Below, piece by piece: positions 41,597-45,658 of a stretch of 45,658 bases of DNA (position 1 is the stretch's first letter; each line of letters begins with the position of its first letter). This stretch comes from Zetaproteobacteria bacterium CG06_land_8_20_14_3_00_59_53. GTDB lineage: Bacteria; Pseudomonadota; Zetaproteobacteria; Mariprofundales; Mariprofundaceae. The notes below the pieces were generated by a model. It was not told the origin of the DNA and ran no database searches. It saw nothing but the letters and a program-made list of their open reading frames with translations. Both the position numbers and the translations under genes were made by a program. The stretch covers positions 1 to 45,658 of the forward strand of contig PEWE01000024.1 of NCBI GenBank assembly GCA_002779605.1, written 5' to 3'.

Positions 41597-41667
41597 CGGT
41601 TTCTCCTGTTGGCTCTTCGGAGCCGGTTGTGTTTGCGGGTGGTGCGGGTGAAGCGTTGCGGCCTGCC

Positions 41668-41704
41668 TACAAACAACAAGGCCGCAGGGTATAGCTGCGG
41701 CCTT
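41668..41704 (-). terminator. Attenuator hairpin upstream of leuA
   Basis: On the minus strand AAGGCCGCA pairs with TGCGGCCTT (9 bp, 41704-41678), loop of 9, followed by GTTGTTTGT. It lies about 80 bases before leuA and after the leader peptide at 41743-41826. In the leader RNA CCTGC (in the Leu codons) can pair with GCAGG nearby, and that GCAGG could instead pair with CCTGC within this hairpin, the sort of switch used in attenuation, though only five base pairs long. Confidence 0.6.
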
Positions 41705-41742
41705 GAGGGAAAACTATGGAATCATTATTCCGGATGAATACC

Positions 41743-41826
41743 TCAGAAGTCACGCTCAATCCTGCCTAGCAGCAGTGCAGGCATGGATAGGTTCAAGATG
41801 GCATCAAAGTCGCGCTTGGTGTTCAT
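41743..41826 (-). CDS. Leucine-rich leader peptide of leuA (leuL-like)
   Basis: A 27-residue open frame, MNTKRDFDAILNLSMPALLL then GRIERDF, ending in TGA. It carries five leucine codons (TTG, CTA, CTG, CTG, CTA), three in a row at the end, and two of them CTA, a codon uncommon in this GC-rich DNA; E. coli leuL likewise uses rare leucine codons. It is followed by the attenuator hairpin and leuA. The ATG is seven bases after a -10 box (TTTACT), so the transcript starts at or very near the ATG and this would be a leaderless leader peptide. Confidence 0.72.
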   Translation of the reverse strand: MNTKRDFDAILNLSMPALLLGRIERDF

Positions 41827-41833
41827 GCGGCGG

Positions 41834-41862
41834 AGTAAAGCACTGCCCGTCGGGGGTGTCAA
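41834..41862 (-). promoter_or_regulatory. leuA operon promoter
   Basis: Minus strand TTGACA (41862-41857), consensus -35, 17-base spacer, TTTACT (41839-41834) then CCGCCGC and the leader ATG at 41826. Confidence 0.72.
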
Positions 41863-44143: not shown

Positions 44144-44171
44144 TTGACGCAGGCGGTCACATCACTATGTT
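44144..44171 (+). promoter_or_regulatory. rRNA promoter copy 1
   Basis: TTGACG (44144-44149), 16-base spacer, TATGTT (44166-44171), then TCGCCGCCC. Least conserved of the four. Confidence 0.68.
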
Positions 44172-44236
44172 TCGCCGCCCTCCGGGGTGTGAACCAGGTC
44201 TGATTCAGGCTGAGTTCACAGGGCGACAAAAGGGTG

Positions 44237-44264
44237 TTGACGCAGAAGATTGCACCCCTATAGT
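44237..44264 (+). promoter_or_regulatory. rRNA promoter copy 2
   Basis: TTGACG (44237-44242), 16-base spacer cagaagattgcacccc, TATAGT (44259-44264), then TCGCCGCCC discriminator. A-rich bases lie just upstream of the -35. Confidence 0.8.
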
Positions 44265-44329
44265 TCGCCGCCCTCCGGGGTGTGAACGAGGCCTGATTGA
44301 GGCTGGATTCGCAAGGCGAATAAAAGGTG

Positions 44330-44357
44330 TTGACGCAGAAGATTGCACCCCTATAGT
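44330..44357 (+). promoter_or_regulatory. rRNA promoter copy 3
   Basis: TTGACG (44330-44335), the same 16-base spacer as copy 2, TATAGT (44352-44357), then TCGCCGCCC. Preceded by gaataaaagg. Confidence 0.8.
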
Positions 44358-44421
44358 TCGCCGCCCTTCGAGGTGTGAGCGAGGCCTGATTGAGGCCGGA
44401 TTCACAAGGTGAAAAAAGGTG

Positions 44422-44449
44422 TTGACGCAGAAGATTGCACCCCTATAGT
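44422..44449 (+). promoter_or_regulatory. rRNA promoter copy 4 (nearest 16S)
   Basis: TTGACG (44422-44427), identical spacer, TATAGT (44444-44449), then TCGCCGCCC, about 260 bases before the 16S 5' end. Preceded by gaaaaaagg. After it the repeat stops and the unique leader begins. Confidence 0.82.
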
Positions 44450-44542
44450 TCGCCGCCCGTCAGTCAAATGTTGCATAACGATGACAGGCGGTAGTTAAAT
44501 CCGGTGTTGCATTTCCCTTTGGGGGCAATATGATTCCGGTCC

Positions 44543-44712: not shown

Positions 44713-45658
<946 letters not shown>

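Follow-up and report, generated by a model that had tools for sequence, protein, structure and literature searches.

The leader of leuA in a zetaproteobacterial genome was identified, with high confidence, as a ribosome-mediated transcription attenuator that senses charged tRNA-Leu and that carries a very probably leaderless leader peptide, here called leuL. Leucine attenuation is classical. The family described here is new in being zetaproteobacterial, conserved across most of the class and absent from Rfam. At the level of sequence and comparison, the parts of the leader, their order, their conservation, the codon bias and the competing pairings are established.

Promoter, leader frame and terminator upstream of leuA

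The leader was located on the minus strand of the window (the whole 45,658-nt stretch of DNA that was analysed), which derives from a zetaproteobacterial genome of 2.37 Mb in 33 contigs. On the same strand, psd and pssA are followed by leuA. The closest leuA genes were zetaproteobacterial, with CG1_02_55_237 (92% identical) followed by other Mariprofundaceae and Ghiorsea. A search of plasmid DNA with the locus gave matches confined to the coding part of leuA. Features of the locus are given in Table 1.

Table 1. Positions of leuA and its leader elements in the window
Feature	Position	Strand	Basis
-35 element TTGACA	41857..41862	-	sequence; TTGACn in 35/35 leaders
-10-like element TTTACT, TGC in the extended -10 place	41834..41839	-	sequence; position kept in relatives
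leuL leader peptide frame, 27 codons + stop, with ATG 7 nt past the -10, probably leaderless	41743..41826	-	
9-bp hairpin AUCC-UGCCU / AGGCA-GGAU around the Leu codon run	41759..41788	-	predicted fold
Antiterminator segment 2: frame end and stop codon	41741..41755	-	imperfect predicted pairing with 41708-41697
Segment 3: terminator 5' arm and preceding CCU, common to antiterminator and terminator	41695..41708	-	predicted fold
Intrinsic terminator hairpin, 11 bp	41677..41705	-	predicted fold; U-rich tail 41676-41670
Shine-Dalgarno site AGGAG of leuA	41603..41607	-	anti-Shine-Dalgarno energy scan
leuA, 2-isopropylmalate synthase, 513 aa	40055..41596	-	TIGR00973, 737.7 bits (cut-off 598.7)

The promoter consists of TTGACA, a 17-nt spacer and TTTACT, and is separated by CCGCCGC (7 nt) from the ATG at 41826-41824. 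This arrangement, with a 27-residue frame containing five Leu codons ahead of leuA, had been described in the first-pass annotation and was found in the sequence as described. The -10 element is weak, with 4 of 6 consensus matches and T instead of A at position 2; because of this T the leader promoter was not listed by a sigma-70 consensus scan of the window. The leuL frame translates as MNTKRDFDAILNLSMPALLLGRIERDF and ends with TGA at 41745-41743. Its Leu codons are, in order, TTG, CTA, CTG, CTG and CTA, so that, as judged from sequence, the biosynthetic gene is preceded by a small frame in which regulatory codons stand consecutively. CTA, previously annotated as rare, indeed made up 1.1% of the Leu codons in the 32 long frames of the window. 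Short leader frames of this kind usually escape gene callers.

An intrinsic terminator is predicted between frame and gene. Its stem, previously given as 9 bp, was found to be 11 bp (8 G-C pairs, -19.8 kcal/mol, tail TTGTTTG). The separate 9-bp hairpin predicted around the Leu codon run may be a pause or protector hairpin.

At the far end of the window (44171-44458, plus strand), upstream of the 16S rRNA at 44713, approximately three tandem copies of a 93-bp unit were observed that are 91% alike. Each unit contains a near-consensus promoter, TTGACG-16-TATAGT, and the units are probably a tandem rRNA promoter array.

Conservation of the leader in Zetaproteobacteria

DNA upstream of leuA was compared at 50 loci, comprising the window and 49 other zetaproteobacterial loci. 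The full leader layout (TTGACn, a spacer of 16-18 nt, a -10-like hexamer and ATG) was present at 35 of the 50, with leader frames of 23-32 codons and 4-9 Leu. A looser filter found the pattern at 36 of 50 loci vs 5.6% of dinucleotide-shuffled upstream regions; the match at L070 was rejected as false, being inside pssA. The 15 loci without the leader (L040, L050, L051, L052, L055, L057, L059, L061, L063, L068, L069, L070, L073, L078 and L080) mostly have leuA directly after pssA. The attenuator seems to have been lost or bypassed at these loci, perhaps more than once. Two leuA genes, one with the leader (L049) and one without (L063), were observed on contigs of a single MAG (JALUXZ). This may be contamination; the genome with two such leuA places (G078) is 8% contaminated. 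No Rfam family matched the window or 20 related loci at gathering score, and RF00512 (Leu_leader) gave no match here even at E values up to 10.

In a search that permitted 4-11 nt between the -10 element and the ATG, 31 of the 35 leaders had a gap of 7 nt and the other 4 a gap of 6 nt. The strict promoter-plus-ATG pattern occurred once in the 2.37 Mb genome, at the leuA leader, and 0 times in a reversed control. Anti-Shine-Dalgarno energies averaged -8.1 kcal/mol at the leuA starts, where all 35 were at or below -4, and -1.6 kcal/mol at the 35 leader starts. The strongest values at leader starts (L045 and L047) reflect consecutive Gs within the promoter spacer. The leader thus has the absence of a Shine-Dalgarno site before the start codon that characterises leaderless mRNA. 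For comparison, the -10 to start distance in Streptomyces lividans averages 6.3 nt (PMC8079986). The constant 6-7 nt gap and the absent Shine-Dalgarno site together indicate that transcription would start at the A of the ATG or within ~2 bases of it. Owing to this constancy, a leaderless start could be tested directly in Mariprofundus cultures.

A leucine attenuator with an ordinary, non-leaderless peptide was also considered, in which transcription starts at least 5 nt further upstream or reads through from psd-pssA, and the ribosome initiates on a normal 5' untranslated region that has no Shine-Dalgarno site. The position of psd and pssA immediately upstream on the same strand means that read-through RNA may exist, and the weak -10 of the window also favours this arrangement. 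It is nevertheless improbable, given that TTGACn and a -10-like hexamer 6-7 nt from the ATG were found in 35/35 leaders, that the genome has no second copy of the strict pattern, and that the leader start has no convincing Shine-Dalgarno site.

The leader frame is under selection as a frame, as judged from codon usage and substitutions. CTA accounted for 18.3% of Leu codons in the leaders vs 1.3% in leuA of the same genomes, a 14-fold enrichment (Fisher p 1e-21). Leu accounted for 24% of frame 0 codons across the 35 leaders; the two alternative frames gave 6% and 11%, and shuffles 12%. Frames 1 and 2 were interrupted by stops in 31/35 and 17/35 leaders, frame 0 being stop-free by construction. 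Single-base codon changes within the Mariprofundus group were 120:87 (synonymous:nonsynonymous) in frame 0, compared with 25:156 and 37:157 for the two alternative frames. For the Ghiorsea-like group dS exceeded dN, and the synonymous excess did not distinguish frame 0 (155:241) from frame 1 (146:235). Peptide sequences vary widely among genera except for the Leu run and the RNA-constrained end. Comparison of L060, L074, L076 and L077 with L062 and L066 revealed an indel that shifts the end of the leader frame and retains the terminator-pairing RNA. The alignments suggest that the frame end is constrained by RNA pairing and not by peptide sequence.

Competing RNA structures and proposed mechanism

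The terminator hairpin was present in 35/35 leaders. The antiterminator was assessed from the fold of the RNA that extends from downstream of a ribosome halted on the Leu codons through the terminator 5' arm, against 100 shuffles for each leader. 18/35 leaders beat all 100 shuffles, and in 29/35 no more than 4 shuffles were as good; L034, L045 and L074 were no better than chance in this test. Segment 2, which as a rule begins 18 nt upstream of the frame end, pairs at most loci with the terminator 5' arm, and the antiterminator is often lengthened in relatives by a stop-codon hairpin. The pairing site keeps this place in most loci and covaries among lineages across three strands: GGCCUG-CAGGCC, GGCUCG-CGAGCC and GGCUUG-CAAGCC, with the terminator 3' arm reading GGCCU or GGCUU.

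In the window, GCGUGACUUCUGAGG is predicted to pair imperfectly with CCUCAAGGCCGC, with 9/11 arm bases paired, and there is no perfect 6-nt match between the frame end and the terminator arm. The folded stretch has an energy of -15.6 kcal/mol, equalled by 6/100 shuffles. The overlap of an antiterminator with frame end and terminator 5' arm is therefore weaker in the window and clear in most relatives, through which the switch of the window is best understood. The stability of the terminator (-19.8) exceeds that of the antiterminator (-15.6), so that switching must be under kinetic control, as in other attenuators. The interpretation of the leader as a leucine attenuator, already put forward in the first-pass annotation, gained support from both of the proposed checks that sequence analysis can address: frame and Leu codons are conserved in relatives, beyond the hairpin alone, and a competing antiterminator and terminator can form in the leader RNA of most of them.

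A second explanation takes the hairpin as a plain terminator of the psd-pssA operon, preceded by a small frame that arose by chance, with leuA transcribed from a separate promoter. The end of pssA is just upstream, followed by the hairpin, and a promoter-like GTGACT-18-AATAAT is found at 41753-41724, between the frame end and the hairpin. This site is however still upstream of the hairpin, and the promoter scan listed nothing promoter-like between hairpin and leuA. With the frame, Leu codons, rare codons and pairing of frame end with terminator all kept class-wide, this explanation is very unlikely.

For the attenuator with a leaderless peptide, we infer as follows the precise start of transcription, initiation without a leader, ribosome stalling and the response to leucine. 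RNA polymerase would start at the leader ATG or within ~2 bases, and a ribosome would load directly at the 5' end, unaided by a Shine-Dalgarno site, to translate the 27 codons of leuL. With sufficient leucine, the ribosome would get to the stop codon and cover segment 2, leaving the terminator 5' arm free to form the 11-bp hairpin, and transcription would end before leuA. With charged tRNA-Leu scarce, the ribosome would stall on the CTG-CTG-CTA run; segment 2 would then pair with the terminator 5' arm and leuA would be transcribed. After read-through, leuA would be translated from its own Shine-Dalgarno site. A main action in trans of the peptide or of the released attenuator RNA, as reported for both products of leaderless trpL in Sinorhizobium, has in its favour a similar anatomy and the trans role described for peTrpL (PMC7298713), but is extremely unlikely, as the peptides diverge among genera outside the Leu run and RNA-constrained end, against a conserved peptide target.

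Occurrence elsewhere and comparison with known systems

The looser leaderless-leader pattern occurred 4 times in the whole genome, no more than in the reversed control. In this genome, no terminator was found within 350 nt upstream of ilvB, leuC, hisG or two trpE/pabB-type genes. When 61 genomes of the family were searched, matches to the strict pattern comprised leuA leaders, ordinary genes and chance matches, and no second amino-acid leader family was found among the loci examined from this search. Two loci (L148 and L149) encode regulator-like proteins with a TetR-like N-terminus, whose genes look leaderless behind TTGACGTTCA promoters; similar promoters precede short frames at L146 and L147.

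Outside the class, Leu-rich frames starting 6-8 nt past a -10-like hexamer were found before leuA in Acidithiobacillus-type and several other bacteria (L081, L082, L084, L096, L097, L083, L086, L093, L094, L098, L164 and L170). These are mostly without a clear intrinsic terminator; L194 and L200 combine an outside-class Leu-rich frame with a clear one. The Acidithiobacillus-type and other Pseudomonadota candidates may represent a different mode of leuA control. At L195, L197, L202, L205-L207 and L210, from other Pseudomonadota, the Leu-rich frames have a Shine-Dalgarno-like site instead. A broader proposal is that leaderless initiation is itself part of the sensor. As leuL would be read exclusively by ribosomes that can initiate at a bare 5' AUG, leuA would respond to the state of the ribosome pool as well as to charged tRNA-Leu, both in Zetaproteobacteria and in scattered Pseudomonadota of similar layout outside the class; within this part of the phylum, leaderless leuA leaders would be an old type. 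We regard this as speculative and, on balance, unlikely.

The enterobacterial leucine leader has a Leu-codon frame and an antiterminator that competes with an intrinsic terminator, followed by leuA, and its peptide initiates from a Shine-Dalgarno site. The zetaproteobacterial leader shares the Leu frame, the antiterminator and terminator and the adjacent leuA with this enterobacterial Leu_leader (RF00512), and differs from it in the Shine-Dalgarno start used there.

Campylobacter jejuni LeuL is of similar size (28 residues), precedes leuABCD and contains rare Leu codons including CUA; it gives a Ribo-seq initiation signal, but its orthologues were predicted by location and ribosome binding site and it appears leadered (PMC3847290, PMC11955535). 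In Corynebacterium glutamicum, a leuA leader containing a run of four Leu codons has been proposed (PMC4046766), and leuA leaders of Actinobacteria form a pseudoknot, the LEU element (PMC1262725). leuA does not feature in the main text of Naville and Gautheret 2010, and no relevant paper on attenuators or leader peptides in Zetaproteobacteria was found among the papers searched.

Sinorhizobium meliloti trpL is likewise a leaderless peptide of a biosynthetic attenuator in Pseudomonadota, with translation observed by Ribo-seq, but concerns tryptophan and trpE in Alphaproteobacteria (PMC10117765). Leaderless Leu leader peptides are described in S. lividans before leuA (LeuL1) and leuS (LeuL2) (PMC8079986). 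As in Zetaproteobacteria, these are small leaderless frames with a run of Leu codons, followed in LeuL2 by a hairpin and U stretch; they differ in belonging to Actinobacteria, in their peptides of 12-15 residues and in the lack of a typical terminator in LeuL1 (PMC8079986). The novelty suggested in the first-pass annotation therefore does not extend to leaderless leucine leaders as such, which S. lividans already provides, and holds for the zetaproteobacterial family. Zetaproteobacteria thereby gain a well-supported leucine attenuator with ~35 natural variants in which three-strand covariation is visible, and leaderless leader peptides gain a class-wide comparative case beyond Actinobacteria and the trp leader of Sinorhizobium.
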